From Platanthera guangdongensis (Eukaryota; Streptophyta; Magnoliopsida; Asparagales; Orchidaceae), in the NCBI GenBank assembly GCA_039583875.1, contig CM077165.1, positions 75,070,757 to 75,134,756 on the forward strand: 64,000 nucleotides of DNA. Reading direction: 5' to 3'. The position numbers and the translations under genes are program-made. The notes below the pieces were generated by a model that worked only from the letters and a program-made list of their open reading frames with translations, had not been told where the DNA came from and did no database searches. Positions 14,633-63,656 of the stretch are shown here, piece after piece (the stretch's first letter is position 1; the number at the start of each line of letters is the position of its first letter).

Positions 14633-15631
14633 TCACGCATCGTTGGTGGGGAGAGCTTGCACTTCCGCCCACCTTGATACATAGTCGACCGCCTCTAAAA
14701 TATAATTATTTTTGAAAGACGGAGGTAGGGGGCCAACGAAATCTATGCCCCATAAATCGAAGACTTCGCATTCTAAAAACAAATTTTGGGGCATCTCGTC
14801 GCAACGAGAGATATTACCCGACCGCTGGTAGCTATCGCAGGAGCGCACAAAATTGTGAGTGTCTTTGAATAGAGTGGGACAAAAGAAGCCCGCCTCGAGC
14901 GCCTTCCGCGCAATCCGGTTACCTTGATAATGCCCACCAGCTGGACTCTCGTGGCAGTGCCTAAGGATTTGCGTGCACTCCACACCCGCGACACATCTTC
15001 GGACTGTTTGGTCCGCGCAGATACGAAAAAGAAAAGTGTCCTCCCAAAAGAAATATTTCAAGTTAGAAAAGAATTTCTTCTTTTGCTGGCTTGAAAAGTC
15101 TTTTGGGAGCACACTCGCAACTAAATAGTTCGCAAAATCTGTGAACCAAGGCGGGGAAGATGAACTAGTAGTTATCGTTAGGAGGCGTTCCCCGGGGAAT
15201 CTGTCATTTATATCAGATTCGACGAGTGCTTCCGCACCGGGAATTTCTAAGTGGGAGAGGTGATCGGCAGTTAAATTCTCCGTGCCCTTCTTATCCCAGA
15301 TCTCCAAATCAAATTCTTGCAGGAGGAGGATCCATCGAAGAAGGCGTGGTTTGGCGTCCATTTTTGCTAACAAATATTTTAAGGCGGAGTGGTCGGTAAA
15401 TACGATAACTTTGGATAGCGTGATATATGAGTGAAACTTATCGAAAGCAAATACGACGGCTAAAAGTTCCTTTTTTATTGTCGTGTAATTTCCTTGTGCT
15501 GAAGTGAGTGTCTTACTAGCGTAATAAATAGGATGAAAATATTTGTTTATACGTTGGCCAAGAACGGCACCTACGACAATATCACTAGCATCGCACATAA
15601 TCTCGAACGGAAGAGTCCAATCGGGCGCCAC
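14633..15631 (-). pseudogene. Athila-type RNase H and integrase, N-terminal part
   Basis: 332 open residues. RNase H begins at [18 protein letters not shown] with [13 protein letters not shown] and [11 protein letters not shown]. The integrase zinc site follows with [10 protein letters not shown], then [10 protein letters not shown], where the second Cys of CxxC is Tyr (codon 14828-14830). The core starts [12 protein letters not shown] and stops after LPTNDA. The second core Asp lies in the gap to the next fragment. RNase H removes the RNA template during reverse transcription; the damaged zinc site makes integrase non-functional. Confidence 0.87.
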
Positions 15632-17627: not shown

Positions 17628-17906
17628 TGAAAGATATGGTACCTAAACACCTAGAGGGGGGGTGAATAGGTGACCTAATCCTTTTCTTAATTCTTTGTTG
17701 GCAGTCAACAGTTTATAACACAGATTTCTGAATAAGTAATCACAGCACACAGCAATTCTCAACACAGTACAATCACAGCACAGAATACACAAGATTTTAT
17801 AGTGGTTCCCCAATCTTTGGGTACATCCACTTTCCCCCTTCGCCTATCTAGCAGTGTACTAGATTCGGCCAAACTTCTCCACTAGCTCAGAACCCAACAA
17901 GGTTCC

Positions 17907-18062
17907 TACCTCAGGCCCAAAGCCTTACACTCAGCCAAAAGGCCTACACTCAGCCACCCAGGCCTACACTCAGCCAATCAAGGCTTACACTCAGCCAATT
18001 AAAGGCCTACACTCAGAGTTCTTCAACTCCTACACTCAGGCACCAAGCCCTACCCTCAGCCT
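17907..18062. repeat. short tandem repeats in SIRE-type LTR leader
   Basis: Six or seven degenerate units of about 20 bp based on GGCCTACACTCAGCCAA. The same array is at about 28918-29062. It lies downstream of the TATA box, so it would be in the RNA leader. Function unknown. Confidence 0.8.
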
Positions 18063-18538
18063 TTATAAAATAGGCTTACAATCACTCAGATCCTATGGAT
18101 CTTACAAGTTTAAAATAGAAATTACAAATGCTAACTCTACAACTCAGAAAGGATGAGAGGAGTTGAGAGTTTCTTGAAGAGTTCTTGGAAGAACTCAGCT
18201 TGATCCAAACTGACTTAGCTTTCTTCAAAGCTTCTTGAGTAGAACTGAATTAGTCTGAATCTTCTGCAGTTGATCCTTGATCTCTGCTTCTTGAAATCCA
18301 GATGACTCTGAATTGTTCTTCTCAGCCTTAGTTCCAAAGACTGAATCCTTAGTTGGAGCTCTCTCTCTCCAACTACTTAGATCTGCAGTTGGACTGCCTG
18401 ATCTTCTTGTGTTGATCCTCTATGTATCACTTCTTGATTTAATCTGATCAACTACTTCAATTATTCTCACAACAAGTAATGATTGTGAACAACTTGACCA
18501 CTTAACAACTTAACTGCTTATTCTGTAAACTGTGGGTG

Positions 18539-18550
18539 CCTATTTATAGG
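18539..18550 (-). promoter_or_regulatory. SIRE-type LTR TATA box
   Basis: The minus strand reads CCTATAAATAGG, about 155 bp downstream of the end of the GTGTCGACAC array and inside the LTR. The copy in the 5' LTR is at 29540-29551. It is the likely start signal for genomic RNA. Confidence 0.75.
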
Positions 18551-18704
18551 CTTCCTTCATGGTAACCGGCTGATCCGGTTTATAACAGACTTTTGACTTC
18601 TCTGACAGTTGCTGTAGACCGGCTGGATTGGCAGCTGTCATGTCAACCAGTCACTTCTTGAAATTCTCTAACTGTCAGTTAGTGTCGAGACTTTCTGTTC
18701 TTAA

Positions 18705-19557
18705 GTGTCGACACTTATAGACCAAGTGTCGACACATGTTGTGTAAGTGTCGACACAAGTCTACAAGGTGTCGACACAATTCCTTGTATGTCTCGACACA
18801 GTTTCTTCTGCATGTGTCGACACTGAAATTGAGTGTCGACACAAGTACTTGTACTTCATTCTTTATCTGTATTCTTCTAAGTGTCGACACATCTCCTTTG
18901 TGTCGACACATCTTCATGTGTTGAAACTGTCAAGTGTCGACACTGATTCTTGGTGTCGACACAAGTCTTCATTCTTGATTCTTCAGCTGAGTGTCGACAC
19001 ATTCCCTTAGTGTCGACACTTATACTTAGAATATTTTACAACTTTTCTGTTCTTTGCTAAGTGTCGACACAGCTCCTTGTGTCGACACTTCTTCAAGTGT
19101 TGAGTCTTCTGGTTATGTGTCGACACATTGTGCTGAGTGTCGACACATTCTTCAAGTGTTGACTTCTTTGAGTGTGTGTCGACACATTGTGCTGAGTGTC
19201 GACACATTCTTCATATGTTGACTCTGCTGATTGAGTGTCGACACATTGTGTTGAGTGTCGACACTTGTACTTAGTCTCTGCAGAATTTTGCTGGAGTGTC
19301 GACACAACTCCAAGTGTCGACACTTTCTGATGTTGACTCAGCTCTTCTAGGTGTCGACACTTCTGCTAAGTGTCGACACAGCTTTTCTGCATCCTTCTAC
19401 ACTGAGTGTCGACACAGCTCCAAGTGTCGACACTTTCTGACTGGTGTCGACTCTTCTTCCCAGGTGTCGACACAATGACTCCAAGTGTCGACACTGCATG
19501 TCTGGGTGTCGACACAAGCTTTCTCAAGTGTCGACACTTGCCTCTGGGTGTCGACAC
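18705..19557. promoter_or_regulatory. GTGTCGACAC palindrome array, 3' LTR
   Basis: I count 31 exact copies of the self-complementary decamer GTGTCGACAC, plus variants (GTGTCGAGAC, TGTCTCGACAC, GTGTCGACTC and TpG-type GTGTTGAC). They are spaced irregularly by about 10 to 60 bp and separated by unlike, T-rich sequence, so the motif is conserved while the spacers are not. The 5' LTR has the same array at 29706-30559, with one copy changed to GTGTCGTCAC. Position upstream of the TATA box suggests an enhancer bound by a dimeric factor. Confidence 0.85.
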
Positions 19558-19701
19558 ATGGACTTAGAATTTTTAGCTTCAGTCCAGTGTATTCCTAACC
19601 TGCACAAGTAACTCAAACAAACATCAAATACATTCTGATGTATATCATTGAGTTAGGTGAGGCTTCTTCAAATCAGGTACATTTGACCAATGTACCCAAC
19701 A

Positions 19702-19999
19702 ATCTCCCCCTATTTGGAGAAGTCATAACCCTTAGTCAATGATATACACCACTCATAATTAAAAATTACAAAATGATGTAAAACATATAAATGACAACAG
19801 GGTAAACTTGAACATGTAATAAAGCACACATGTATACTTATTAAACATTGCAGAACAATTAAGAAACACACATATTTCAGAACATTCATACTATATTTAT
19901 CATATACTGTTCCAATAATGTTCCTTATACATTTTCAATGAAGTATTACAATGTTTTATCACTTAACAGATTACAACAAGCATCAAGTTAATTCCTAAT
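19702..19999 (-). other. SIRE-type polypurine tract and 3' untranslated region
   Basis: Next to the LTR the minus strand reads CCAAATAGGGGGAGAT (19702-19717), the polypurine tract. The rest, up to the stop of the envelope-like ORF, is AT-rich with no coding signal. Confidence 0.75.
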
Positions 20000-22784
20000 C
20001 TAGTGCTGATCAGGTTCTTTAATAACAATGCCTTTTCCAGCTTTAACTTGAGCTTTCACAGCAGCAGCAGCAGCAGGCTCAGCTTCAGCAGTCTTCTTCC
20101 CTTTAGAGTCCTTCTTCTTCTGTTCTTCAGCCTTGATCTTTTGTCTTTCAAAATAATGATAGGGCTTAGGAAAGTACTTGCTAGGCTCCACAGCTGTTGG
20201 AGGTAGCTTTCCTAACTTAGCCTTCCTTCTAAATTGGACAATTGCTTCCTGCCTACTCTCATGCTTTCTCCATTCAGCCTCTGAGAACCACTTGTTCCTC
20301 TCATGGGCATTGTCCTTGGCAGCTTTCCAGGCTGTGAGAATTATGTTCCTAGAAGTAGGGCTCCATTGTTCAAAATCTGGCTTTTGCTCAGCAATTTCCC
20401 TAAACTTCTTCTTTGACAGCCTAGTTTCTTCTTCCTTGTCCAAAGCCTCTTGCATTGCAGCTGTGATAGGTTGAACAACCTTTTCCAGAATAATATTAGG
20501 CTTGCCAGCAGGTGGACTATACATTGTGCTTATATCTGCATGAATCATTTCAAAGTCTGGAGGTGGATAGATTACATCAGCCACTGCTTGTTGCTCACCT
20601 CCAAGATATGCATTTTGAATACCAGATTCAGCCACTTCATTGTCATCACACAGGGGAGGATATCCAAGTGTAGCCCTGATAGAATTGGAAATCCATTTTG
20701 CATGCTCAGAACTGGCCTTGACTAACACTCTCTCCCCCTTTATGACTTCTTGGGCCACATGATCTCTCACATCATCTTTCTGGAATCGGATTTGGCTATC
20801 CAAATACCTTATGCCCTCTTTAAAGAAAGGTCTAAGCTTTGTAAGCTGTTCTGAAATGACCTTCTGTGAGTCTTTTATTGCAGTCTGTACAGCAGCAATC
20901 TCTGCTTGAAATAGCTTATCAAAATCAGCCTTTGGCAGCAGCAGTGGAGGTTGAAGGTTCATCAGACTTTTTCTTGAGTTCAGTGACTATGGCATTGTGA
21001 GATGCAGTCAAATTATCATTCATCCTGAGTTGATTCTCCAGCACATAGCCTTGCTTTAGTGCTATATCATCAACTTGAGTCTCTTTATTTTCTCTTGATG
21101 TTTAGCCAAATAGACTACTGCATGAGCACCCTTTGTAAAACAATCAGTCATCTCCTTTTTATTAAGGTTCATTTCAAACCTTATTGACTTGATTTCCTGG
21201 CCTAGATCAGATTGTAGTGCTTTGTGCCCTTCATCAACATAAGTTTCTAAAGCTTTCCTTTGTTCATCCATCTTGATTTGCATGGCAAGCAATAGAGCAC
21301 TGTAATCAGTGGATGGAGCTTGTTGAACTAAGGAATGTTGAGCAACTGTTTGGAGAGCCTTCTTATAGCTCTGGCTTCTTCTTTTGAAAACAAAGAACTT
21401 CTTTTTCTGAGCTTGCTCAGCTTCATCATCTTCAGAGTCTGATGTACTGGCTATATCCACCCTATCCTTAGGGCTGGATTGTTTTTCAGTATGCACATCT
21501 TGTGCCTTCTCAGTATCTAGCCTTATAGGCTCTTCCACAACTTCAATGTTCTCCCCCTCAGCAGCAGCATTCCTTTACTGTATCAGCATCATTCTTTTCC
21601 ATATCAAAATCTTCTTGATCTAAGTTCAAAAAGAGATCTTCCATTGTATATTCTGCTGGAGACTGTGCAGGAGATGTACTGGTTTCATCAGCTATAACAG
21701 ATGTGTCTTGGAAGAACAACATCTGGTTCTTGAGTTGCTGGCTGATTTTGCTGATGGTCATCAGACAAATCAGAATTTATTATAGAAAAATCTAATGTAT
21801 TAAGGTCAACAAGTACCTCTTGAATGAGGAGGGTGGCTTGTTCACTCTCCAGTGTAGATGGTTCTGCTACACCTGGAAGCTCCCCCTGGATGTCAGCTGC
21901 CTCCTGAGGAGCAGGTGTCTTCTCTGCAGGCACATCAACTGGACTTTCAGGAGTGAAGACCACATGTTCTTCACTGCCTGAGCTGCTGGAGGACTCTTGA
22001 GGCACAGCAGCAGTCTTCCTCTTCTTCCTGGGAGGAGAGTCTCTCTTAGAAGCTTGTTTCTCAGGGGTGGTCAATTCCTTTGACACCAGCACCCTTTCCC
22101 ATCTAGAGAATATCCTGGAGTCCATTCTCCTCATATGATTGATCTTAGATCCTGCAGCAGTGCTCATTACCTCTGGAATTGATCCAGCCAGGTAGAGACT
22201 TAGTATCCTGCCCAGATTGGGCTTCTTCAGGCTTTCTTTTACTTTCTCATAAACCACCATTGACCAATCTGTTTTCAGATTGAAGATGATTCTGGTCATG
22301 ACTTCAAACATGGAGGCAGACACCCTGTCATGCCCTCCTGGCTTGCTCAGTATTACCTTGCCCACTACTTCAGACAAGAACTTGCCTTGAATATTCATAC
22401 CTTTCCTGTTAAAGACTGATCCCACCTTCATCTTTGGATCCAGTCCACACCAAGTAAGAGCTTCCCTGGTCTTAGAAGCAGTTACTTCCTCTTCATCTTG
22501 AACTTTAGGTAGCTGAAGTACCTTTCTTAAAGACTTGGGTGAAATTTGACCTTGGTGCCATGCACCCTGGACTTAATCCTGAAGCCTGAGTCATCTATAG
22601 ACGCGCCAGAAAGGAATTCAATGACTTCCTTCTTCCATATTTTCGTTGGTTCTGAAACCAAGAATTCCAATCCTGAATTGACAATTAGGGTTATCACTGA
22701 TTTGATTTCTTGATCGCTGTCGTCAAATGCGCCTCGCACAAGCTCATAGCCTTCGTTTACGTTCTCTTCCAGCTTGGGAGCCAT
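20000..22784 (-). pseudogene. SIRE-type envelope-like ORF (ORF3), frameshifted
   Basis: The likely start is the ATG at 22782-22784 (MAPKLEENVNEG), about 98 bp downstream of an internal TATA box. The frame then breaks near 22550, 21720, 21560 and 21000, leaving open pieces 22527-22784, 21688-22431, 21558-21761, 21062-21538 and 20000-20962. The N-terminal half is globular; the middle is rich in Ser, Glu, Pro and Ala; the last third is Lys/Glu-rich, with coiled-coil character near the DFDKLFQAEIAAVQ block. I see no signal peptide or clear membrane segment. Known: SIRE elements carry an envelope-like ORF of unproven function. The name reflects position and lineage, not demonstrated activity. Confidence 0.75.
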
Positions 22785-22879
22785 TAGGGTTTTGAGAATT
22801 AGTCTTGAGATGAGAGAAATGTCGACACAAGAGTTTAGGTCTCGAAACTTTGAAAGCGTGTCGACAATCAAAGACAGAA

Positions 22880-22892
22880 CCCTATTTATACC
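22880..22892 (-). promoter_or_regulatory. internal TATA box before envelope-like ORF
   Basis: The minus strand reads GGTATAAATAGGG, the same core as the LTR TATA box. It lies 44 bp downstream of the internal GTGTCGACAC array and about 98 bp upstream of the ATG of the envelope-like ORF, which leaves room for a short 5' leader. This is the expected layout of a separate promoter. Confidence 0.65.
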
Positions 22893-22935
22893 TTTCTTGT
22901 TTGAAGACGAACAGGCGGGATGAATTTCTAATGAT

Positions 22936-23265
22936 GTGTCGACACTGTCAATAAGTGTCGACACTGACTTATAATGTCTCGACACTCATGTGTCGACACA
23001 AATTTAGTCAACAGATTTTATGTGTCGACACTTGGTTAAGTGTCGACACCACTATACTCGACATGTGTCGAGACTTTACTTAGAAAAATTCTGAGTAAAA
23101 CTTAAGTGTCGACACTTTATTGGATGTGTCGACACCTACTCGACATGTGTCGACACTAACATTCTGAAGTGTCGACACTAACTTCCTAGATGTGTCGACA
23201 CCATTTTCCTGAAGTGTCGACACTTACTATTCTGTGTCGACATAGACTTGTCTATGTGTCGACAC
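22936..23265. promoter_or_regulatory. internal GTGTCGACAC array between pol and envelope-like ORF
   Basis: Twelve exact copies of GTGTCGACAC in 330 bp plus variants (GTGTCGAGAC, TGTCTCGACAC, GTGTCGACAT). The last codons of pol (VSTHRQVYVDTE, stop 23227) read through one end of the array. A motif otherwise confined to the LTR U3 is thus placed between the two coding regions, just upstream of a TATA box. Confidence 0.85.
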
Positions 23266-25384
23266 CTTTTTACTTAGCCAATTTTTGTTCTGTATACTTA
23301 GTCTAAAGTTTATCATACCTAGTTCAATTTTGAACCTATTAAACTTAGCTTCTTCTAAGGGCTTAGTAAACATATCAGCTATCTGATTATCTGTTTTAAC
23401 ATATTCAAGTGCAATATCATTTCTTTCTACATGCTCCCTAAGAAAGTGATATTTAATCTCAATATGTTTAGTTCTACTATGTGATACAGGATTATTAGCT
23501 ATGGAAATAGCACTAGTAGAATCACAATAAAGTGGAGTTCTACTTACCTGACATCCATAGTCTTCTAGCTGATGTTGAATCCACAGAAGTTGAGCACAGC
23601 AACTTCCTGCAGCTACATATTCTGACTCAGCTGTGGAGATGGCCACACTGGTTTGCTTCTTACTACTCCATGAAATGAGTCTTCCACCTAGGAATTGACA
23701 GGATCCAGTAGTGCTCTTTCTATCTTCTTTGCATCCTGCAAAGTCTGCATCTGAATAAGCCTGTTAGATCAAAATCTCCATTCCTAGGGTACCAGAGGCC
23801 TAGATAAGGTGTGCCCTTTAGATATCTCAAGATTCTCTTGACTGCAGTCAAGTGAGACTCTTTAGGGCAGGCTTGATACCTGGCACAAACACATGTAGCA
23901 TACATAATGTCAGGCCTACTTGCAGTCAAGTAAAGTAGGGAGCCAACTATCCCTCTATACAAGGTTTCATCCACAGGTTTCCCTGCATCATCCTTGCTTA
24001 GAGACATACTTGACCCCATAGGAGTCTTCATGGTACTGGAGGAATCCATACCATATTTCCTTATGAGTTCTAGGGTGAACTTTGACTGACATATGGACAA
24101 GCCACTTTCAGTCTGTTTAACTTGGAGACCCAAGAAAAACTTCAGTTCTCCCATACTACTCATTTCAAATTGACTTTGCATAAGCTTTGCAAACTTTTTG
24201 CAAAGGCTACTTTCAGTAGACCCAAATATAATGTCATCTACATATATTTGGACAAGTATTACTTTGCCTCTAGATTCCCTAAGGAATAGAGTCTTATCTA
24301 TTTTCCCCCTTGTGAACTTGTTCTCAATGAGGAAACTAGATAGGGTTTCATACCAAGCTCTAGGAGCTTGCTTTAACCCATACAATGCTTTCCTAAGTCT
24401 ATAGACATAATGTGGAAGAGTAGGATCAACAAAACCTGAAGGCTGCTCCACATATACTTCTTCTTTTAAATTACCATTAAGGAATGCTGACTTCACATCC
24501 ATTTGGTATACTTTGAATCCTTGGTAGGTTGCATAGGCCAAGAACATCCTGATGGCTTCCAGTCTGGCTACTGGAGCAAAGGTTTGATCAAAATCAATAC
24601 CTTCTTCTTGCCTATATCCTTTTGCAACCAGTCTTGCCTTATTCTTAATGATGACTCCTTGTTCATCTAACTTGTTTCTGTAGATCCACTTTGTTCCTAT
24701 CACATTGTGATCTTTAGGCTTAGGAACTAAGTCCCAAACCTTGCACCTCTTGAACTGGTTTAGCTCTTCCTGCATAGCTTCAGTCCACTGTGGATCTTGT
24801 ATTGCTTCTTCAAATTTCTTTGGTTCTATTTGAGACAGAAAACTTGAATATACTGCAGCATTCTGATTTCTGCTCCTTGTCTGAACACCTTGTCTTGGAT
24901 CTCCAATGATCAGCTCCACTGGATGATCTCTTAGATGCCTGTTGGCTGGAGGCATCCTTACTTCTGGTTGTACTTCTTCAGCATCTTCATCATGCTGAGT
25001 TCCTTGAACTTCTTCAGCTCCTGGTACATGTAGTTCTCCCCCTGGACATAAGCCATCTTCTTCTACTTGCTGTCTTGCAGCAGGTACATCTTCCATGGTT
25101 AGCTTGTCCATCTTCTTAGAAAGACCTGTGGGGCTGCACACACTACTAGACAACTCATTGTTAATAAGAAGTGTCTCATCAAAAACTACATGCACAGACT
25201 CCTCTACAACTTGTGTAGTCAAGTTGTAGACTCTATAAGCCTTACTATTACTGCTGTACCCAACAAACACTCCCTCTTGGGATTTGGCAGCAAACTTAGT
25301 TAAGTAAGACTTCCCATTGTTAAGTATGAAGCATTTACAACCAAAAATCCTGAAATAGGATAGATTTGGTTTCCTGCCTTTCAC
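23227..25384 (-). pseudogene. SIRE-type reverse transcriptase and RNase H (two frames)
   Basis: 23720-25384 (554 residues) begins in the integrase tail ([17 protein letters not shown]), then runs through a variable linker to [54 protein letters not shown] and the catalytic [10 protein letters not shown] frameshift near 23765 separates it from RNase H at 23227-23646 (STAESEYVAAGSCCAQLLW, CDSTSAISIANNPVSHSRTKH, NQIADMFTKPL). Catalytic motifs look intact, so the frameshifts are the only visible damage. Pol ends inside the internal palindrome array. Confidence 0.9.
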
Positions 25385-26466
25385 TACTTCATAGGGGTCT
25401 TGTTTAACCTTTTAGTGATGGTAGCCCTATTTATCACATGGCATGCAGTGTTTACTGCTTCAGCCCAGAAATATTCTGGCAGTGATGAATCACTTAATAG
25501 GGTTCTACCAGCCTCTATCAAGGTTCTATTTTTCCTTTCAGCAATGCCATTTTGCTGAGGTGTTCTAGGTGAAGAGAATTCTTGAAATATCCCATAGTCT
25601 TCACATAGTTTTGTCATGCTTTCAGATTGAAACTCTGTACCATGGTCACTTCTAATTTTGACCACTGTACAGTTCAATTCATTCTGAATTTGCTTAACAA
25701 AACTGTGGAAGACACTAGGTGTTTCAGATTTCTGCTTTAAGAAGAACACCCAGGAAAACCTTGAGTAGTCATCAACAACTACAAAGGTGTAGACCTTCCT
25801 ACCTAAGCTGTGAACTGGCATTGGACCAAATAGATCCATATGCAAGAGGTATAAACACCTCACAGCATCCTTGTTGTCAATGCTTCTAAAGGTGGATTTA
25901 GTCTGCTTGCCCTTTTGACAAGCTGAGCAAATGCCATCTTTGACACACTTAACTTGAGGACCATTCCTCACTAACTCTTTACTAAAGAGTTTGCCAATAG
26001 TCTTGTAATTAAGATGAGCAAGCCTCTTGTGCCACTTGACACATTGAGAGACTGTCTCATCAGCTACAAGACAAACTGGAGAACTATTGTTCTCAACCAT
26101 AATGTCTAAACAATAGACATTTCTCTTCCTATAACCTGTCAAAATGATCTTTTGATCACTTGACCTCTTGATATGACAACCATTTTTAACAAATGAGATG
26201 TCATACCCTACATCACTTAATTGACTTATACTAATGAGGTTATGTTTCAAACCTTTAACATAAGCCACTTGAGTAATGGTAACAAGGTTAGAAGAAATGT
26301 TACCAAACCCTTTGATGATTCCTTTTTCAGAACCACCAAAGGTCACCTTTGGACCATTTTTGATTGGGATGTAGTCCTTCAGTAGTCCCCTAGTTCCAGT
26401 CATGTGTCTGGAACATCCACTATCCAAGTACCATGTAGGGGTATGGCCACTTGGATTTTCCTGCAA
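25384..26466 (-). pseudogene. SIRE-type protease and integrase
   Basis: 360 residues in frame with gag but separated from it by one TAA (26473-26475). The end of the protease has WYLDSGCSRHMTG with D-S-G. The integrase has the HHCC site (HKRLAHLNY.. CSACQKGKQ) and core blocks MDLFGPM, DDYSRFSWVFFLK, IRSDHGTEF and PQQNGIAERKNRTL, so D,D,E is intact. A one-base deletion near 25390 shifts the frame into the RT fragment. The codon before QENPSG is TTG and follows TTTGTTTTGCAG, which resembles a 3' splice site. Either the TAA is a defect, is suppressed, or lies in an intron. Confidence 0.88.
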
Positions 26467-26472
26467 AACAAA

Positions 26473-28512
26473 TTAATGAACCTTAGAACCCAAAGTAAAC
26501 TTGGGTCCTTGGTGATTGTTAGTTTGCAATTTGACATAGCTACCTGCTGTCTTTCCAACAGGTAACTTGCTACACAACTTGGCACTGGCATTGTGCCAAC
26601 AATCCAAAGCAAAGTGGCCAACCTTGCCACAGCACCAACATTCAAATTTGTTGTACCTTTGCTTAGGTTCTGACTTAGCTGTCTTAACTACAGCAGTCTT
26701 GTTGAATGTTGGGGCTTTGCCCTTGGACTTGGACTGATCCTGAACAGTCCTAGCTGGATTAACAAAACCCAGTCCAGTCTTTCCTTTATGATGAACAAAA
26801 TCATCAATCAAGGGTAGCACTGATTTAGGTTTTGAATACCTAGCTGCTAGCTCTTTCTCCTTCTGAAGATTAATCTCCAGTTTCTTAATTTGATCATTCT
26901 TAAATGTAATAGTACCCATCTGAATCACAGTAATGTGTTTCAGCCTAGCCACTTCATTCAGTTTTTGATCATAATTCTTCTCATAATCTATTGCAGCTGC
27001 CTTGAGATCAGCAATTTCCTTGGCCAAATTTTTGGCTAGGGTCTTGCTTTTCTTATAGGCTTGCAATAGTACTTGATATTCATCTAGGAGTTGATGAATA
27101 TCTCCCTCAGACTCAGATATATTCTCATCACTTGATGAAGAATAATCTGACTCTGAACTAGAACTGGAATCAGAACTTTGAGTTAAACCTTGTACCTGAC
27201 TGGGTCCTGGCTGCTCCAGGTTTTTAGTACTTTCAGTCAAAGCCATCAGTCCTTGGCTTTGACAGTCTTCTTGCTCATAGATAGATTCCATGATCTGCAT
27301 AAACTCTTCTTCTTCTTCAGCAAATAGCCCAATATAGGCTTCAGCATCTGTCTCAGTGTCTGAAGAAGACATATCTGAAAGAGTCTTCTCATTCTTTGCA
27401 ACAAAGGACTTCTCCTTCTTTCCTTTGAAGTGTGTTTTCTTTTTGTCACTGGATTCTTTCCTTCTTTCAGGACAGTCTGCAATAACATGGCCCTGTCTAT
27501 TGCAGCAGTAACAAATTATCTTGGATCCAGTTGCCTTACTAGTCTTGGTCCTTTTCTTGTCCTTCTTTGAAGGCTTCTTTTCCTGATACTGAACCTCTTT
27601 CCCTTTGGAAGATGAAGGTCTAGACCTCCACTGTTTCTTCTTAAGGAACTTCTGAAAATGTCTGGTGAATGCAGCAAAGTCTTCATCACTTTCACTGCTT
27701 GTAGATTTTGTACTTTCTGACTCTTCAGATTCTGATTCAACTACCTCAGGAGGAGGAGTTGATGACTTGGTCCTGCTCTTTCTGGGTACATCTGACTTAA
27801 AGGCAACAGTCTTTTCTCTGTATTCAGTCCTTGTTGACTTTTCTTCTTCTTTTCTCACTGACAATTGCATCTCATAAGATAACAACTTGCCAAAAAGTGT
27901 GGGAGGAGGAATTTCTCCCAACTTTGCCATTTCTCTGATGGCACAGATCTTGGTGTCCCAGTCTTTGGTGAGGGACCTCAAGAATTTATCATTCAACTCA
28001 TAGTTTGTGAACTCTCTTCCATATGACATGAGTTCATTTACAATTCTATAAAATTTCTTGTAGCATTCAGTGATGCTATCCCCTCTTCCTTGCCTAAAGC
28101 TTTCATATTCTTGATTAAGCAAGGACTTCCTATCTTGCCTTACTTCTTCAGAACCTTCCATATAGACAATGAGGGTGTCCCACATTTCTTTTGCAGTTTT
28201 ACAGTGAATAAGGTTCTGGAAGGTGGCATCATCAATTGCACTAACTATTATATTCTGTGCTCTTTTGTCCATGGTTGCTAGGACAATCTCATCCTTGGTC
28301 ATTTCAGAGAAATCCTTTGGAGTCCTCTGATTTGCATCCAATACTGAAATCTTCATGGGCACATATGGCCCTTCTTTGACTGTGATGTATATCCTAGGGT
28401 CAGAGGCTTCCATAAAAAGCCTAACCCTCTCTTTCCAGATCCCAAAGATCTCTTTTCTGCATATAGGTAGTTTCATTGAACCCAACTCCTTATGATTCTC
28501 TGAAGAACCCAT
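26473..28512 (-). CDS. SIRE-type Gag polyprotein
   Basis: 679-residue open frame from ATG 28512 to TAA 26473. The N-terminal capsid-like part has IWKERVRLFMEASDPRIY, MWDTLIVYMEGSEEVRQDRK, and FRQGRGDSITECYKKFYRIV. A first zinc knuckle CYCCNRQGHVIADC lies near residue 345, an acidic Ser-rich region follows, then a coiled coil (about 480-575, LDEYQVLLQAYKKSKTLAK..) and a second knuckle CWCCGKVGHFALDC near 630. It would form the cytoplasmic particle. Large gags with added C-terminal domains are usual in SIRE elements. It is the only fully open major gene of this element. Confidence 0.92.
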   Translation of the reverse strand: MGSSENHKELGSMKLPICRKEIFGIWKERVRLFMEASDPRIYITVKEGPYVPMKISVLDANQRTPKDFSEMTKDEIVLATMDKRAQNIIVSAIDDATFQNLIHCKTAKEMWDTLIVYMEGSEEVRQDRKSLLNQEYESFRQGRGDSITECYKKFYRIVNELMSYGREFTNYELNDKFLRSLTKDWDTKICAIREMAKLGEIPPPTLFGKLLSYEMQLSVRKEEEKSTRTEYREKTVAFKSDVPRKSRTKSSTPPPEVVESESEESESTKSTSSESDEDFAAFTRHFQKFLKKKQWRSRPSSSKGKEVQYQEKKPSKKDKKRTKTSKATGSKIICYCCNRQGHVIADCPERRKESSDKKKTHFKGKKEKSFVAKNEKTLSDMSSSDTETDAEAYIGLFAEEEEEFMQIMESIYEQEDCQSQGLMALTESTKNLEQPGPSQVQGLTQSSDSSSSSESDYSSSSDENISESEGDIHQLLDEYQVLLQAYKKSKTLAKNLAKEIADLKAAAIDYEKNYDQKLNEVARLKHITVIQMGTITFKNDQIKKLEINLQKEKELAARYSKPKSVLPLIDDFVHHKGKTGLGFVNPARTVQDQSKSKGKAPTFNKTAVVKTAKSEPKQRYNKFECWCCGKVGHFALDCWHNASAKLCSKLPVGKTAGSYVKLQTNNHQGPKFTLGSKVH

Positions 28513-28607
28513 GTTCTTGATTTTCTTGAAACTGTTTCCTGTTTCCTGACTTATACTGAATCTGCCAAACTGGATCTCCTCAGACAGTTAGTCCTGATTT
28601 TGAGGAA

Positions 28608-28623
28608 CCTCGCTTTGATACCA
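28608..28623 (-). other. SIRE-type primer-binding site (initiator Met tRNA)
   Basis: The minus strand reads TGGTATCAAAGCGAGG two bases inside the 5' LTR, complementary to the initiator Met tRNA end (TGGTATCA core). The short leader to the gag ATG at 28512 follows. Confidence 0.85.
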
Positions 28624-28625
28624 CT

Positions 28626-30703
28626 TGAAAGATATGGTACCTAAACACCTAGAGGGGGGGGGGTGAATAGGTGACCTAATCCTTTTCTTAATTCTTTGTT
28701 GGCAGTCAACAGTTTATAACACAGATTTCTGAATAAGTAATCACAGCACACAGCAATTCTCAACACAGTACAATCACAGCACAGAATACACAAGATTTTA
28801 TAGTGGTTCCCCAATCTTTGGGTACATCCACTTTCCCCCTTCGCCTATCTAGCAGTGTACTAGATTCGGCCAAACTTCTCCACTAGCTCAGAACCCAACA
28901 AGGTTCCTACCTCAGGCCCAAAGCCTTACACTCAGCCAAAAGGCCTACACTCAGCCACCCAGGCCTACACTCAGCCAATCAAGGCTTACACTCAGCCAAT
29001 TAAAGGCCTACACTCAGAGTTCTTCAACTCCTACACTCAGGCACCAAGCCCTACCCTCAGCCTTTATAAAATAGGCTTACAATCACTCAGATCCTATGGA
29101 TCTTACAAGTTTAAAATAGAAATTACAAATGCTAACTCTACAACTCAGAAAGGATGAGAGGAGTTGAGAGTTTCTTGAAGAGTTCTTGGAAGAACTCAGC
29201 TTGATCCAAACTGACTTAGCTTTCTTCAAAGCTTCTTGAGTAGAACTGAATTAGTCTGAATCTTCTGCAGTTGATCCTTGATCTCTGCTTCTTGAAATCC
29301 AGATGACTCTGAATTGTTCTTCTCAGCCTTAGTTCCAAAGACTGAATCCTTAGTTGGAGCTCTCTCTCTCCAACTACTTAGATCTGCAGTTGGACTGCCT
29401 GATCTTCTTGTGTTGATCCTCTATGTATCACTTCTTGATTTAATCTGATCAACTACTTCAATTATTCTCACAACAAGTAATGATTGTGAACAACTTGACC
29501 ACTTAACAACTTAACTGCTTATTCTGTAAACTGTGGGTGCCTATTTATAGGCTTCCTTCATGGTAATCGGCTGATCCGGTTTATAACAGACTTTTGACTT
29601 CTCTGACAGTTGCTGTAGACCGGCTGGATTGGCAGCTGTCATGTCAACCAGTCACTTCTTGAAATTCTCTAACTGTCAGTTAGTGTCGAGACTTTCTGTT
29701 CTTAAGTGTCGACACTTATAGACCAAGTGTCGACACATGTTGTGTAAGTGTCGACACAAGTCTACAAGGTGTCGACACAATTCCTTGTATGTCTCGACAC
29801 AGTTTCTTCTGCATGTGTCGACACTGAAATTGAGTGTCGACACAAGTACTTATACTTCATTCTTTATCTGTATTCTTCTAAGTGTCGACACATCTCCTTT
29901 GTGTCGACACATCTTCATGTGTTGAAACTGTCAAGTGTCGACACTGATTCTTGGTGTCGACACAAGTCTTCATTCTTGATTCTTCAGCTGAGTGTCGACA
30001 CATTCCCTTAGTGTCGACACTTATACTTAGAATAATTTACAGCTTTTCTGTTCTTTGCTAAGTGTCGACACATCTCCTTGTGTCGACACTTCATTCTAGT
30101 GTTGAGTCTTCTGGTTATGTGTCGACACATTGTGCTGAGTGTCGACACATTCTTCAAGTGTTGACTTCTTTGAGTGTGTGTCGACACATTATGCTGAGTG
30201 TCGACACATTCTTCATATGTTGACTCTGCTGATTGAGTGTCGACACATTGTGTTGAGTGTCGACACTTGTACTTAGTCTCTGCAGAATTTTGCTGGGTGT
30301 CGACACAACTCCAAGTGTCGACACTTTCTGATGTTGACTCAGCTCTTCTAGGTGTCGACACTTCTGCTAAGTGTCGTCACAGCTTTTCTGCATCCTTCTG
30401 CACTGAGTGTCGACACAACTCCAAGTGTCGACACTTTCTGACTGGTGTCGACTCTTCTTCCCAGGTGTCGACACAATGACTCCAAGTGTCGACACTGCAT
30501 GTCTGGGTGTCGACACAAGCTTTCTCAAGTGTCGACACTTGCCCTCTGGGTGTCGACACATGGACTTAGAATTTTTAGCTTCAGTCCAGTGTATTCCTAA
30601 CCTGCACAAGTAACTCAAACAAACATCAAATACATTCTGATGTATATCATTGAGTTAGGTGAGGCTTCTTCAAATCAGGTACATTTGACCAATGTACCCA
30701 ACA
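28626..30703 (-). repeat. SIRE-type 5' LTR
   Basis: 2078 bp, pair of 17628-19701. TATA at 29540-29551, GTGTCGACAC array at 29706-30559, leader repeats at 28918-29062. It is followed by the TSD GCATT (30704-30708). Confidence 0.95.
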
Positions 30704-30708
30704 GCATT

Positions 30709-32183
30709 TTAATAATTTTTTTCATTTGAAATTTGTAAAGGCAGCGTAATCGAAGAAGGGAGAAGAGGGGTCGGAGGTGAAATATGTACATGCGGATCGG
30801 TCCGTTTTGGATCGATCACCTCCTTTCCGCTACGGAGGGTTATAGCGTTAATATTCTCTCGCGGATTGGGCTCCATGTTTCCCGGTAGTGCCCCGAGCGC
30901 GCACTCGGACATCATTCGCGTAAGCTGTCCAACCTGTAGTTCTAAGGTTTTTAGCGTTCCGGTGATGTTCCGGATATTTGACTCGTTGGAAGCGATATAT
31001 TTAGAAAAATTCTCCTCCATCGGGGAGGGTTTTGGAAGATGGGGAGGCGGCAGAAATCCAGGCGCAAAAGAATTTGGCGGGCGCTGCGCATTATTCGCAT
31101 TGCTCCATGAGAATTTGGGGTGGTTCCCCCAACCTGGATTATAGTTATTACTATAAGGGTTGTTGTTGGGGTTGAATAAAGGTCGCCCAGCATTTCCCAC
31201 ATAGTCTACGAATTCATTGACTACGTCAGCATTAGGGGGAATTGCCCAAGGCGGAGTGGTGGAAGCAGTAGACATCTCTGCCACCTGCTTCGTCAGTCGT
31301 TCAACTTGAAGTGTTAAGTGGGCAGTGGCATCCACTTCGAAGAGGCCGGTCGCCTGCTTCGGACGTCCCCGCGGGACATTCCATTGGTAGGTGTTCATAG
31401 CCATCTCTTCAATAAGAGATTGGGCAGCCTCAGGGGTCATATTATTCAAGGTACCCCCGACAGCCGCATCAATCATTTGACGCGTCTGATAATTAAGCCC
31501 GTTGTAGAAGATTTGGACCTGCAACCATGCAGGCAGCGCGTGGTGCGGACACTTGCGGAGAAATTCTTTAAAGTGCTCCCAAGTCTCAAATAGAGACTCG
31601 GAATCATTCTTCACAAACGAAGAAATGTCCGCCCGAAACTTTGCAGTTTTGGCGGGCGGAAAATACTTCGCCAAGAACCATTCCGCAAGCTCGGCCCAGG
31701 TGGTGATACATCCTCGTGGGAGGGAATTCAACCACGCCTTAGCTTTGGATCTGAGGGAGAATTGAAAAAGGTGCAAACGAATGGCCTCATCAGTGACGCC
31801 ATTAATCTTAAAGGTATCGCAAATTTCCAAAAAAAACTAGACAAATGAACGTTCGGGTCCTCATCCGGCAGTCCATCGAACTGCACAGCATTTTGGATCA
31901 TTTGGATAACGCTCGATTTGATCCCAAAATTATTGTTCGCCACCGTAGGGTGAATAATACTGGACCCAGTATCGTCCAAATTCAGTCGGGCGTAATATGG
32001 CACTGTACGCTCGATGGCCGCGTTCGGATTGGGGTCGGCCATAGTAACGGAAGAGGGTTCTCTGACGGATTCTTTGGGATCCAAAGAGGGATTTCGGTGT
32101 TGACACCGAATACGCGCAAGCGAGTGTTCGATCTCAGGATTGAAATCCAAATTTTCGGAATCCGAAGGTTGTCCACGGGTCAT
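30709..32183 (-). pseudogene. Athila-type gag (one frameshift)
   Basis: The start is most likely the ATG at 32181-32183 (MTRGQPSDSENLDFNPE). The first frame runs to about 31830 (VPYYARLNLDDTGSSIIHP, FDGLPDEDPNVHLSSF), then shifts into 30709-31830, which has the gag core DEAIRLHLFQFSLRSKAKAWL, TTWAELAEWFLAKYFPPAKT and MIDAAVGGTLNN, followed by a Pro/Asn-rich linker and VGQLTRMMSE. Athila gags usually lack a clear zinc knuckle and none is seen. The C-terminus is separated from the protease (17627) by the SIRE element. Confidence 0.88.
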
Positions 32184-41116: not shown

Positions 41117-42412
41117 CTAGTAGGAACGAGGTGTGGCAGTGGCAGAGATAGCCAGCGCAAAGGCCCTGTGAGAAGAGGTAAGACGATCATATGAAACAAC
41201 AACAACAAGGGGGTGTAGGGTACACGTCCGCACCCCTTTGCGAAGAGCCACAGGAAGGTCCAGGTCGGCGGTTCCTTCGGCATCCGGAGCATCCGTGTTA
41301 GAGAGAGTTGGCCTGGGAGGAGAGAGCGACGGCGGTGGAGATGAGGGAGACGGTGGCGGAGAAGTGAGAGAGAGAGGCGGATGGAGAGGAGTTGACGGAG
41401 ACGGTGTAGGGGTGGATATCGCGGGAGGAGACGATGGAATGAAGGGAATAGCATGAGAATCATAAGCTAGGGGAAGAGGAGAGGAAGCTGGGGGAAGAGA
41501 AGTGGAGTCATCCGAGAAGTAGGAGGCATTCTCGAAGAAGGTAACGTCAGCGGAGACGAACTGTTGACGAAGAACGGGGTTAAAGCAACAGTAGCCTTTC
41601 TGAGTGGTGGAGTACCCCAGAAAGACATATTTGGTGGAGCGAGGGGATAGCTTATCACGGGTGGCAGATGGGGCATGCACAAATACAGTGCACCCAAAGA
41701 TGCGGAGAGGGATAGGAAAAGGCTCCTTGCCCGGATACAGAATGGAGAATGGGGTTTTCCCATGGAGAACGGTGGAGGGAATGCGATTGATGAGGTAGCA
41801 GGCAAGGAGAACATCATAGCCCCAATATGAGCGAGGGACATGCATTTGGGTCATCAACGTGCGAGCGACATCGAGGAGGTGACGGTTTTTGTGTTTCGCC
41901 ACCCCATTTTGTTGGGAGGTATAAACACAGCTAGTTTGATGAATAATGTCATGTTGCACACAAAAAGAGGTAAACGCATGACTCAAATATTCTTTAGCAT
42001 TGTCGGAGCAAAATGTTTTAATGCAAACACCAAACTGAGTTTTAATTAACTGATAAAAAGAGATCCACACATCTAAAAGTTCAGAGCGATCTCGTAAGAG
42101 ATACACCCAGGTACATCTAGAAAAATCATCAATAAAGGTTACAAAATAAGAACTACCCCGACCAATGGTGAGGGTAGGAGCAGGTCCCCAGACATCGTAG
42201 TGGACAAGATCAAATGGACGAGTAGAGCCCCGACCTTGCTTCGGATGGAAGGAGGAATGGTGATGCTTGCCTAGTTGATAAGCGTCGCAGTGGAGAGGAG
42301 TACTGGAGGGAGGGAGGTGGGGCAGAAGCTGATGTAGAAGCCGTGGTGGAGGATGACCGAGGCGGAGATACCACTGGAGAAGATCCGTACAAGAAGATGA
42401 GAAGGCGGACAA
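41117..42412 (-). pseudogene. Copia-B integrase with lost catalytic Glu
   Basis: 431 residues. The zinc site has LGHPPPRLLHQ and CDAYQLGKHHH, where the second Cys is Tyr (codon 42278-42280). The core has YDVWGPAP, FIDDFSRCTWVYLL and CSDNAKEYL, then QQNGVAKHKNRHLL, where the usual AERKNRHLL Glu is Lys (41894-41896) and the next Arg is His. All fit G-to-A changes on the coding strand. The long Pro/Ser-rich tail (about residues 290-380) is a typical copia INT-RT linker. Confidence 0.9.
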
Positions 42413-42525
42413 GGTGGAAACGTTGTCGAGGAAGTAGAGGCCGCCGCTCTCAGTCCTAGTAGCAATCGTCTATTGGGAGCTCGAATCCTAAAAAAACAAG
42501 AAGTCGGAGTAAACGTCACAGAACA

Positions 42526-43689
42526 CTAAAGCTGCTTGCATAAAGAGGTAACCGACAATAAATTGCACGGAAACTTGGGCACATAGAGACTGTCCGCTAG
42601 TCGAAGGGACGGAGTAACATGAACCACTCCCGACCCATGAACTGGGGAGGGAGAACCGTCTGCAATGATGATCGGGGGCAACCGATCATGCTGTCCGAGT
42701 AGAGAGAAGCACTGAGGATTGCCCATCATGTGATTAGTTGCACCAGAGTTGATGAGCCATTTACCGTAAGTTACCACATGGGCACTACCTGAGGATGTGA
42801 CCATTGAGGCAGACGGCTTGGAAGAGGAGGCAGAAGAGTCACCGGAGGGGCGAAGATGGGGATGCTTCGTCCAGCAGCGTTCGGAAGTATGGCCGGTGCG
42901 GCCACAGTGAGAGCAGAGGTAGCGGGAAGAAGCACATCCGCCGGACTGGTGACTGTGGCTACCAGAGCCACTCCGCTGAGTTTGATGAGCATAGTTATCC
43001 GGTGGAGGAGTAGCGGGCAGAAGTGGGCGCTGAAGGAGAGAAGTGACAACGGCGATGCGGGCAGCGCTGGCATCTAAGGTAGGAGATTTTGCCTCACCCA
43101 GAATTTGATGGCGGATCATGTCATAAGTATCAGAAAGTCGGAGCAGATAACAAACAACCAGATGCTCCTGGAAGTGCTTGTGTTGTTGAGCCAAATCCGC
43201 AGAAAAGGGGCTATTCTGAAGAATCTCAGCCCCAAGATCCTGAACCTGTTGGTAGGCAGCAGCAGGAGACAAGGTAGGACGGGCAAAGAGGTCTGCATAC
43301 AACGTATAGATGCAGGACATCTAAGCCCCTTTGGAGTACAGAGCGGTAAGATGAAGCCAAGCGGCCTTGACCATCTCATCATGACGGATTACGGGAAGGC
43401 ACTCATCGGATAGGCTGTTAGCGAGCCAAGTACGCACAGGAGTGTCACTCGCATCCCAGTCATCAAAGAGAGGTGAAGTTGTAGGAGGAGGGTCATCAAC
43501 GAGATGGTGGCGTTTGCGTTGCGAGCGTAGGAGAAAGGTGAAAGAGATGCTCCAATCTGGGTAGTTAGAGCCGACAAGCTTGGAAACTGTGCCAAGGTTC
43601 CCGGAAGGAGTAGGAGGAAGAGGCGGAGCCAGATTGGCGATAGGGGTGGTGGCAGGAGTGGTGGCAGTAGAAGCATTAGAAGGAGCCAT
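42526..43689 (-). pseudogene. Copia-B gag and protease
   Basis: Gag starts MAPSNASTATTPATTP at 43689 and is interrupted by one TAG (43321-43323), in frame with the next part at 43320. The capsid-like part has LVGSNYPDWSISFTFLL; the zinc knuckle is CSHCGRTGHTSERC. The protease site reads WLINSGATNHMMG, with Asn (codon 42748-42750) in place of the catalytic Asp. The frame stops at 42526 within the protease. Such a protease could not cleave the polyprotein. Confidence 0.9.
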
Positions 43690-59720: not shown

Positions 59721-62699
59721 ACAACCACCGAGCCTACTACCCGAACATCCTAGTCAAACCAACTTCGTTGAGACACCGGGGTGTGTGAAAGTGAACCCCT
59801 AATTATTCTAGTTGCTCTTTAAGATTTATCACTGCTATGGTTTACGTTAGCCCAGGGCTGCCCAAGGTATACCCCGTGAAGGGCTCTCGAAGGCACTAGG
59901 AACTACGATGGGATTACGCCCAAAGCTCCATTTCGTAAGGCACTTACTATTATTGGTTGCTATCCGATTTCCCAACCCTTAATTAATTTTTCTGAATTTA
60001 GCCCTAGTGCATTAAACACTTCCTCCCTACGGGAAGGACGATCTTTCGCCGATCCCGAGCACCACCTAACACTAGTCAACCTCACACTCTACTAATCCTG
60101 TCTTCCAATGATAAACTCCTTTATTTACCCAAACCAGCAACCTACTAAGGATTCAACTCTTCAAAATTCATTACCCACTCTAGTTCATTTTCCATAGTTA
60201 CTATATGCAGAACACCATATACTATATGAGATGTATAAAGGAGGTACTCTGGATTGTCTTCCAAATCTCCTATAAAATTTACCAGAGGTCCACCATAACA
60301 ATTTTACTCTAAATCAGAGATTCATATTTTTTTTCTAGCTAATTTGATATTTATTAAATTTTCCCAAAGTTTGGTCATGGGCAATTTTGAACATGAACTA
60401 TATGATCTACTCAGGTAATGGCCACCCAAAAATTTTGATCACTAAATAACAGAGATATATTACTAGATACTAATTTCCATAATTGTTCAGAGATTATTTG
60501 ACCTCTAATTAATTTATCCAAAATAATTTCTTTAATCATATGTAAAGAAGGAAGTACCAAAATTACTCATCATAAAATTATATAAAAATTTTTGAATCTT
60601 AATATGGTACAAAGAGAGTCATTGTGCAAAAAATCATAATTTTACAGGCTTGCTAGACTCCAAAATAAATTTAATTATTTTTCATGAGAAACAGTACTTA
60701 ATGAAGCAACCCATATAATTAGTCTTCCAAAAATTTCATAAAAATTCACAGAGCTTTAAATCATAATAAAAAGTCCTCTAACTATAATGCATCAATTTCC
60801 AGCAAGTAGTTACTTCATAATAAATTTCTAAGTAAATAATACAAATTACCAAATTGTTAATTAAGTATCCAAAATAATAATCCTAAATTCATAATAAAAT
60901 CTCCAGAGCTTGTACTATCTTTAAAAACTACTCAACCCGAATCTCATCAATTTTCAATGAGTTTTAGTGACATTTTCCTTCACTACAATGTTTGTGCCCT
61001 AAGCTAGGGTTAGGGTTTTGAGGGGGTTTAAGGCTTCCAAATTACTAAAACTTTAACCAAAGGACCAGTAAATCATATGGTCCTCTCCACAAATTTTCAA
61101 TTCATTCCAAGGTCATTTGACCCCATGACCTTCAAACTCTAAAAATCCCCATTACGGGACCTACCCTAGGGCTCTAGGGCTACCCTACTATTAACCACCC
61201 CAAATTCCATTGGATGGTGAGACATACTATAGAGAGTCAGTGGCCAAAATATCAGCCTCTGTTGATGTGATTTGACCACTCAAAACCCAAAGGGGGTGCT
61301 TGACCTAGTTAACCTTAAAAGGGTCAACCAAGGGTTGTATCAATACCTAACCCAAACATCTCCAAATGGGATGCAAATTTTACCAGAGCCCTAACATGCC
61401 CTCTAAGACCACCCACCCAAATTTGGGGGAGTTTTGAGATGTTTAGGACACCTAATTAATTTATTCATGGATTATTAAATTTTTCTAAAAACTATAGAAA
61501 CGTTTTTCCAAAAATTCTGATTTTTTGATGTGTCCTAGATATAGTTGAGAGTAGTCCAATCCCAAAATTTCAAATCATTTGGATGTCTGGTTTGGAGTGG
61601 GCATCCATTTTATGCTCTAGACAGCCCTAGGGATAGACCTCACCAAAATGAGTGCCCTGGTCAAACCAGACACCCAAAGTGGTCCAAATAAATTTTAATA
61701 ACCTAGACCCTCCAGGCTACAAATTTTATGTTGACCACTTTTTATGAAATAGCACCTAGGTATTTTTAAACATTAAAACCATTAAATACAAAATCTGTGA
61801 CATAAATTAAATTAATCAGAAATGCATTTCTTATAGTTTAATATCATCCCTTGCACGAATCTTGGCGCGCCATGGACGGAATCCCTTCATCTTCAACCTT
61901 GAGCCGACGTCCAGGATTCAATTTTCCTGGGCCAACTTCAAGCGCATGTCGCCTGCAATCCAGCTGCTGCCCCGGCGGGCCACCGTCACCATCACCTCCG
62001 TTGAGGTGGTGGATGTCGTCAGGTGGCGGCACAGCCGCCGGAGGGCCGTTTTCCGGCGGTTCCACCAGGTTCAATTATCGTCCTGAAGCCATGGAAATTC
62101 AAAATTGGTTCGGGCTCAATTGAGCCCGAACATTGAACCTAGACGTTGCTACGATCTAACCATGAGATAAGGGGAGGAGGAGGACCTTACCGCCGGCCTG
62201 AAGTCGAGAATATCGCTGGGAAACCATCCTTGAAGGCGGTGCCGCTTGGTTTCTGCAAGTACACAGTGGGGAGGCTCGGTTTCTTCAGGTAAGGATTGGG
62301 AAATCCTCCTCTCGGCCCACTGAAGGTGTTTAAAGCCTCAGATGGGGAGAGGAGAGGCTGGATCATCAATGGCCATTAATGGCCTTGAAAGCTTCCTCTC
62401 GGCCTTGGTGGTTCAGTGCATCCAGCTAGTGGAAGAGCCCGGAAAGCCTCCTGATCTTTTCAGGGCTGTTAGGGGAGGTGAACCAAGCAAAGAAGAATGG
62501 CCCTTGGCTTCCCCATGGCATGAATGGCCTTTACTCCATTTTCTCTCTCCTCCATTAAAGGGAAGTTTGAGTTTTTTCTCTCCTACCCCTCATGGCCGAA
62601 TTTGTTCATCACTCTAGCCTATTGGCAGCCCATAAAATCATTATTATTAATTAAAATAAAGTTAACCCAAGTGGGGGGAAATGGGCTTGAGCTTGGGTT

Positions 62700-63330: not shown

Positions 63331-63337
63331 TGTTACA

Positions 63338-63656
63338 AATCCCAATAAACAAAACAAAGATTTCGTCCCCGAAATCAAGGTTAAGCCTAAGGGAATTTCT
63401 ATCGAAGAAAAGGAAACTTGTAACATCCCATAAGAAGTGAAAGATTACATCTCGACGCCATGTTTGCTAAGTGGGGTTTAAAGGGAAACCAAAATCTATG
63501 ACCAATTCGCCCAATTGGCAAATCCAAGATCCCAATAAACAAAAGATTAGTCTCTACTCTTCCTAGAGCAGCCCTACTAGTTTAAAACAGGAAAGTAAAT
63601 TGAACATCTTGAGAGGTTGTGAGGTATACCTGACTGAACAGCTCTGGATACCTTTA
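63338..63656 (-). other. Gypsy-D 3' non-coding region
   Basis: Between the LTR and the end of integrase. Contains a duplicated AATCCCAATAAACAAAA (63338 and about 63529) and the GATTTCGTCCCCGAAATC block (63360-63377), also found next to the Gypsy-A LTR (near 1784-1800). Confidence 0.6.

Follow-up and report, generated by a model that had tools for sequence, protein, structure and literature searches.

The locus studied here raises the question of how a Sirevirus expresses the env-like gene that lies beyond pol. According to the accessible parts of two papers from 2010 and 2012 (PMC2829016, PMC3414828), the soybean element SIRE1 makes its env-like protein by stop-codon suppression, and the route taken in other Sireviruses is left open. 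The later paper names stop-codon suppression and an internal promoter as routes of expression and allows for the gene not being a genuine envelope gene (PMC3414828, in the part available). Bousios et al. 2010, as far as the available text goes, described palindromic boxes (RM) in 13 Sireviruses, situated in the LTRs and upstream of ENV; boxes occurred in the linker of all nine RM-bearing Sireviruses with ENV and of none of the four without it, with 77 of 79 upstream of ENV, and CpG islands lay at both the LTR and the linker, the LTR TATA box following its island at a mean distance of 37 bp (PMC2829016). The same paper backs an internal-promoter hypothesis, which it credits to Peterson-Burch and Voytas 2002, and, in the portion at hand, its authors do not conclusively identify a promoter.

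An earlier note on this DNA had proposed that the env-like gene of the Sirevirus found here has a promoter of its own. Within the 64-kb window that we analyzed (the whole stretch of DNA under study), the segment from 23265 to about 22785 would, by a somewhat better than even estimate drawn from sequence features, be an internal promoter of the env-like gene that shares its regulator with the LTR.

RESULTS

The element

The window contains a Sirevirus copy that is young and partly broken, with the following parts.

17628..30703, minus strand: whole Sirevirus (Ty1/copia) element, 13,076 bp, flanked at both ends by the target duplication GCATT
28626..30703, minus strand: 5' LTR, 2078 bp, with 30 exact boxes at 29706-30559 and TATAAATAGG at 29540-29549
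17628..19701, minus strand: 3' LTR, 2074 bp, with 31 exact boxes at 18705-19557 and TATAAATAGG at 18539-18548
23227..28587, minus strand: gag, PR-INT, RT, and RNase H frames, interrupted by one stop and frame changes; the pol frame ends at 23227
19704..19711, minus strand: terminal PPT AGGGGGAG, starting 10 bp ahead of the 3' LTR

The gag, integrase, and RT are of the copia type, as judged by the Pfam domains Retrotran_gag_2, gag_pre-integrs, rve, and RVT_2. The octamer AGGGGGAG occurs five times in the element, once as the terminal PPT (19711-19704), three times in the env-like region, and once in pol, which is the Sirevirus pattern of one copy 10 bp before the 3' LTR and extra copies in the linker. 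At the 5' LTR junction, the sequence reads CA-AGTGG-TATCAAAGC, and the PBS matches the Sirevirus TATCAGAGC at 8 of 9 positions. Since both the PPT and the primer-site junction agree with the motifs given in the accessible text of PMC2829016 (a PPT motif and CA/A(T or G)TGG followed by the PBS TATCAGAGC), we assign the element to the Sireviruses.

Alignment of the 3' LTR with the 5' LTR yielded 10 substitutions and 6 gap columns. At a rate of 1.3e-8 per site per year, these differences correspond to an insertion about 0.19 million years ago. The copy is apparently nested in an older gypsy element, all domains being on the minus strand, with Retrotrans_gag to the right (30709-31830) and RT_RNaseH and an integrase zinc-binding domain to the left (14633-15631). 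Within the Sirevirus, at 26456-26500, the pol frame runs in phase directly past the gag TAA stop, and the same stretch holds TTAATTTGTTTTGCAG|GAAAA, which resembles a splice acceptor; splicing might join or separate gag and pol at this place.

Boxes and TATA box in the linker

The segment between pol and the env-like gene contains the following features (P0004 is one of the orchid proteins described below).

22936..23265, minus strand: internal array of 15 boxes, 12 exact and 3 one-mismatch
22881..22890, minus strand: internal TATA box TATAAATAGG, a 10-mer identical to both LTR copies
22858..22867, minus strand: one-mismatch box 3' of the TATA box; the env frame reads VDT, also found in P0004
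22819..22828, minus strand: one-mismatch box in the presumed leader; reads CVD, also found in P0004

Exact copies of the box GTGTCGACAC number 73 in the 64-kb window, whereas shuffled sequence yields a mean of 0.04 and a maximum of 1: 31 lie in the 3' LTR, 12 in the linker (22936-23265), and 30 in the 5' LTR. These counts reproduce the 12 linker copies and, for the 3' LTR, the 31 LTR copies of the earlier note, as well as its statement that the motif is otherwise confined to the LTRs, in that the window holds no exact copy outside both LTRs and the linker and a single copy with one mismatch, at 32097. When up to one mismatch is allowed, the 3' LTR, the linker, and the 5' LTR contain 34, 17, and 34 boxes; five of the internal boxes carry a mismatch, including the two that lie 3' of the TATA box, and two pol-proximal internal boxes fall within the pol reading frame. 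Neighboring boxes are 17 to 24 bp apart in 23 of 33 LTR intervals and in 10 of 16 linker intervals. Box columns agree at 0.94 to 1.0 in the LTR and at 0.77 to 1.0 in the linker, compared with mostly 0.2 to 0.6 in the flanking columns, one of which reaches 0.77 in the internal array. Both arrays contain recent tandem duplications, with a 59-bp unit at 19079-19264 and a 22-bp unit at 23147-23224, and the divergence of the spacers is therefore incomplete. Recent tandem duplication alone would keep some boxes alike, which counts against a promoter reading.

Beyond the internal array, the minus strand reads GGTATAAATAGGG at 22880-22892. The 10-mer TATAAATAGG occurs three times in the 64-kb window, always on the minus strand, once per LTR and once at 22881-22890, versus a mean of 0.13 in 60 shuffled windows. 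In 5,000 shuffles of the 153-bp gap between the last exact box and the ATG, TATAAATAGG never appeared and TATAAATA appeared in three, and a TATA box by chance is ruled out by these shuffles. The linker had also been described as arranged like the LTR. This is true of the order of array and TATA box but not of their spacing, the last exact box lying 45 bp from the TATA box in the linker and 156 bp in the LTR, a mismatch that counts against the promoter reading, as does the low agreement around the two TATA boxes (23 of 61 positions). From the internal TATA box it is 96 bp to the env-like ATG, with no other ATG between the two, while an RNA started near 29510 in the LTR meets 136 earlier ATGs.

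The pol frame closes with a TAG at 23229-23227, and the env-like ATG at 22784 follows 442 bp on in another frame, in line with the earlier claim of different frames and a gap of more than 400 bp. SIRE1, also a Sirevirus, likewise carries an env-like ORF beyond pol, but there the two are separated by a stop codon alone. The frame difference and the 442-bp gap exclude readthrough of the SIRE1 type in the present element, as the note had argued. Its choice of SIRE1 as the baseline was a poor one, since PMC2829016, in the part available, calls SIRE1 an atypical Sirevirus.

The env-like gene and its relatives

22527..22784, minus strand: start piece of the env-like ORF; the Met at 22784 marks the onset of homology to orchid proteins
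20000..22572, minus strand: further env-like pieces (22572-21688, 21574-21062, 20986-20000), with frame changes and stops between them

The env-like ORF changes frame near 22540 and again somewhere between about 21690 and 21545, and five in-frame stops at 21064-20989 break it further. Using 21688-22572 as the query, we retrieved two Platanthera zijinensis proteins; a profile search in which the best 8,000 candidates were scored added P0004 to P0006, and a third search added P0007. With this scope of the profile step, the protein relatives all belong to two Platanthera species, which suggests an orchid as the host. The counterpart of the Met at 22784 is the N terminus of P0002, P0005, and P0007 and is internal in P0003 and P0004; P0006 is without that part. 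From this Met onward, identity amounts to 55/83 for P0002, 46/81 for P0003, 80.7% over 83 amino acids for P0005, and 59.5% over 84 amino acids for P0007.

P0004 extends upstream of the Met, its alignment beginning at 22895, and over the 36 codons that precede the ATG in the window it matches at 17 (alignment score of 62; best of 2,000 shuffles, 29). The matches comprise 10 of 10 residues over the TATA box (GINR) and the two boxes (VDT and CVD) and 7 of 26 elsewhere, in blocks that were picked after inspection of the alignment and with gene-model residues, not DNA, compared. GINR can be encoded without a TATA box, which weakens this support, and the annotated residues of P0003 upstream of the Met include VD at equal distance and no GINR. 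Selection seems to have acted on the TATA box and the boxes upstream of the ATG and on the protein from the ATG on.

A simple hydropathy scan revealed no clear transmembrane segment in the env-like window pieces or in residues 1 to 770 of P0007, the best 19-residue means being 1.26 and 1.28 in what is a crude test on broken pieces; outside the shared part, higher values are reached in P0003 (1.88) and P0005 (1.48). By a simple pattern, the second window piece and P0005 contain the NLS-like PPRKKRK, P0002 and P0007 contain KKRK, and P0004 and P0006 have no NLS-like motif. A VANC domain was not found, Pfam giving only a match of P0007 to PF20167 (putative plant transposon protein) at 31.4 bits, below the 45-bit cutoff, and a structure prediction for P0007 from six sequences was too poor for use (mean pLDDT, 39.4; pTM, 0.27). 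In the gene models P0005 and P0007, the env-like protein is joined to other sequences, namely a protein kinase domain and a protein annotated as polyamine oxidase 3. Both fusions begin at the env-like Met; they are either artefacts of annotation or host genes lying 3' of an env-like promoter.

CpG content

The element contains 112 CpG, where 542 are expected, and 87 of the 112 sit in 88 boxes (up to two mismatches). Gag-pol (23504-28603) is free of CpG, with 202 expected, and 19702-22590 has 1, with 122 expected. The internal region is CpG-void except for one patch.

22603..23265, minus strand: patch of normal CpG content, 32 versus 28.4 expected in 22600-23270

Outside the boxes there are 25 CpG, of which 13 lie at 23142-22603, in the linker and the 5' end of the env-like gene (9 in the first env-like codons, 2 immediately 5' of the TATA box, and 2 between boxes of the array). 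The remaining 12 are five LTR sites, each counted once per LTR (three close to the TATA box and two close to the LTR end), one CpG next to the primer site, and one at 20788. Synonymous recoding at matched composition gave mean CpG counts of 82 for gag, 44 for PR-INT, and 73 for RT, and the minima in 300 recodings each were 63, 29, and 53. CAG/CTG showed no depletion (202 versus 121 expected), and TG+CA was raised to 1.29, versus 1.00 and 1.10 in the flanks, as the decay of methylated CG would leave it; selection against CpG itself is an alternative to methylation and decay.

Elsewhere, the CpG observed/expected ratio is 0.88 and 0.79 in the flanks, 1.01 in the neighboring gypsy gag, and 0.75 in a copia element at 41117-43320. 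A second CpG-poor stretch lies at 60001-64000, with a ratio of 0.36, so it is not low CpG that is unique to the Sirevirus copy, only its totality. Since the LTRs show only 10 differences, the CpG loss probably predates the insertion.

Decayed cores, counted as GTCAAC/GTTGAC, a definition that misses further decay, were seen in 3 of the 34 boxes of the 3' LTR and in 1 of the 17 linker boxes. The box CpGs survive alike in LTR and linker, which makes the constraint on the internal array look equal to that on the LTR array. With exact boxes masked, the CpG ratio is 1.19 in the linker patch and 0.16 in the LTR array; some of the linker CpGs counted in this way belong to boxes with one mismatch. The CpGs of the linker patch would be accounted for if the DNA around a start site had long stayed unmethylated or if the segment were of younger origin. 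Taken by itself, the CpG pattern suggests an independent footprint, readable from the letters alone, of the parts that have been kept selected or unmethylated.

DISCUSSION

We propose that the palindromic boxes, about 20 bp apart, would form a regulatory array and that the internal TATAAATAGG would set the start of transcription near 22855, giving a short RNA whose first ATG would be the env-like ATG. Because box and TATA 10-mer are shared with the LTR, both promoters probably answer to one DNA-binding factor. We infer transcription, its start point, the factor, and the coregulation with the LTR, and we take this broken copy to stand for working ones. The proposal is partly supported by the order of array, TATA box, and first ATG, by the onset of homology at the ATG, by the CpG footprint, and by the P0004 residues. 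To this extent, the earlier claim of a separate promoter stands; it does not stand as a new idea, the hypothesis having been backed in PMC2829016.

An alternative that we consider unlikely is that the env-like protein is made from a spliced, LTR-started RNA as a truncated Pol-Env fusion, the array serving another task. The RNase H region does contain CAG|GTAAGT (23542..23550, minus strand; intron from 23547), the sole 9/9 donor of the element and its sole match of at least 8/9; the linker offers in-frame acceptor candidates with ends at 22967, 22895, and 22847, and in the P0004 gene model this RNase H residue (the Q of DYGIQ) is linked directly to GINR. P0004 is, however, an annotation, and residue identity is about two thirds after the Met but falls before it to the 7/26 seen outside the motif blocks. 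Near the ATG, the strongest acceptor-like site precedes 22803 and ranks in the top 2.2% of 1,285 AG sites, but it is out of frame for a Pol-Env fusion. Between 28200 and 29510, there is no donor match of at least 7, and a splice that skips gag-pol is thus without a clear donor. We hold the internal promoter to be likelier than splicing because splicing accounts for neither the boxes, the TATA box, nor the CpG.

It is also conceivable, if improbable, that the array is functional in a different way, acting on the entire element as an enhancer or boundary or, at the RNA level, feeding or dodging small RNAs. In maize Sireviruses, LTR palindromes are hotspots of small RNA mapping, according to the accessible text of PMC5311732, and the RNA of the 330-nt array folds at a z score of -11.65. 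Such folding is, however, the necessary outcome of self-complementary palindromic repeats, and an enhancer or RNA role leaves unexplained the link between linker boxes and ENV, the TATA box, and the adjacent first ATG.

A more speculative view, which we consider quite doubtful, is that the env-like protein may itself be a nuclear regulator that binds the GTGTCGACAC boxes and keeps the LTR and its own promoter free of CG methylation, as a retrotransposon counterpart of VANC. The lineage would then have shed nearly all spare CpG, leaving CG silencing only the protein-guarded boxes to hold. Hints in this direction are the NLS-like PPRKKRK, the lack of a clear transmembrane stretch, the identical boxes at both promoters, and the CpG-free gag-pol. 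Against it stand the four published RM-bearing Sireviruses without ENV and the transmembrane domains in ENV-like genes that PMC3414828 mentions in its accessible part. The VANC/VANDAL system of Arabidopsis similarly has repeated short motifs at several noncoding places, including upstream of a gene, and CG methylation is central to its control (PMC5735166, PMC10398659, as far as the text at hand goes). VANDAL, however, is a DNA transposon; no VANC domain was found in the Sirevirus env-like protein, and any binding of that protein to the boxes is conjectural.

Less probable still is that an LTR piece was once copied into the linker and left the array as its relic. This reading fits the shared box, the shared TATA 10-mer, and the unmasked BLAST pieces of 70 to 81% identity between LTR and linker. 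It is rejected by the comparison with boxes masked, which gave no match better than an E value of 1.5; together with agreement at only 23 of 61 positions around the TATA box, this result argues against a linker formed by copying a block of the LTR. The persistence of box CpGs where unconstrained CpGs were lost also speaks against a relic.

Relation to known systems

The arrangement is largely the one described in 2010. As in the Sireviruses of Bousios et al. 2010, high-copy palindromes precede the TATA box in the LTR and recur in the linker before ENV, and the layout of an RM-bearing, ENV-containing Sirevirus (boxes in LTR and linker, TATA box in the LTR) was found here. The Vitis RM CGGTCGACCG and GTGTCGACAC have the core GTCGAC in common. 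A CGG-CCG signature marks 12 of the 13 published RMs, the exception being Tnd-1 (PMC2829016, in the part available); GTGTCGACAC lacks it as Tnd-1 does, and the signature is usual rather than defining. The LTR boxes of our element begin 145 bp in and span about 850 bp, compared with 200 to 400 bp and 300 to 500 bp in the accessible text of PMC2829016. The additions made here are the TATA-bearing linker, with a 10-mer identical to that of the LTR following the array, and the wholly CpG-free gag-pol body. A keyword search of the literature returned no report of a CpG-free Sirevirus body, which is weak evidence of absence.

For env-like expression, the linker offers a concrete candidate, with a mapped TATA box, a predicted start, and a short leader. 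The CpG footprint could be scored across thousands of Sireviruses from sequence only, and a CpG-free body, if general, would suggest that these abundant plant elements evolve around CG silencing.

As to the host factor, auxin response factors are a weak lead. AtARF5 is said to bind everted repeats whose halves are separated by 13 bp (PMC10690724, accessible part). TGTCGA can be read on either strand of the box, and two boxes placed at 21 bp from each other produce an everted repeat of just this spacing. The lead is weak because exactly 21 bp separates neighbors in only 5 of 33 LTR intervals and 2 of 16 internal intervals and because several published RMs, in the text available, are without TGTC (PMC2829016).

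Searches for other copies by RT alone found nothing, an RT alignment gave 100 pattern matches of which none was confirmed, and a phage collection gave no match. A box pair matched two IMG/VR contigs with two boxes each, L001 (65.6% GC) and L002 (49.9% GC). Within the LTRs themselves, about 20 to 30 bp upstream of the TATA box, lies the near-palindrome AACCGG-ATCAG-CCGRTT (29569-29582 and 18568-18581), which holds two of the few LTR CpGs and is similar to the CCG/CGG boxes reported from other Sireviruses.
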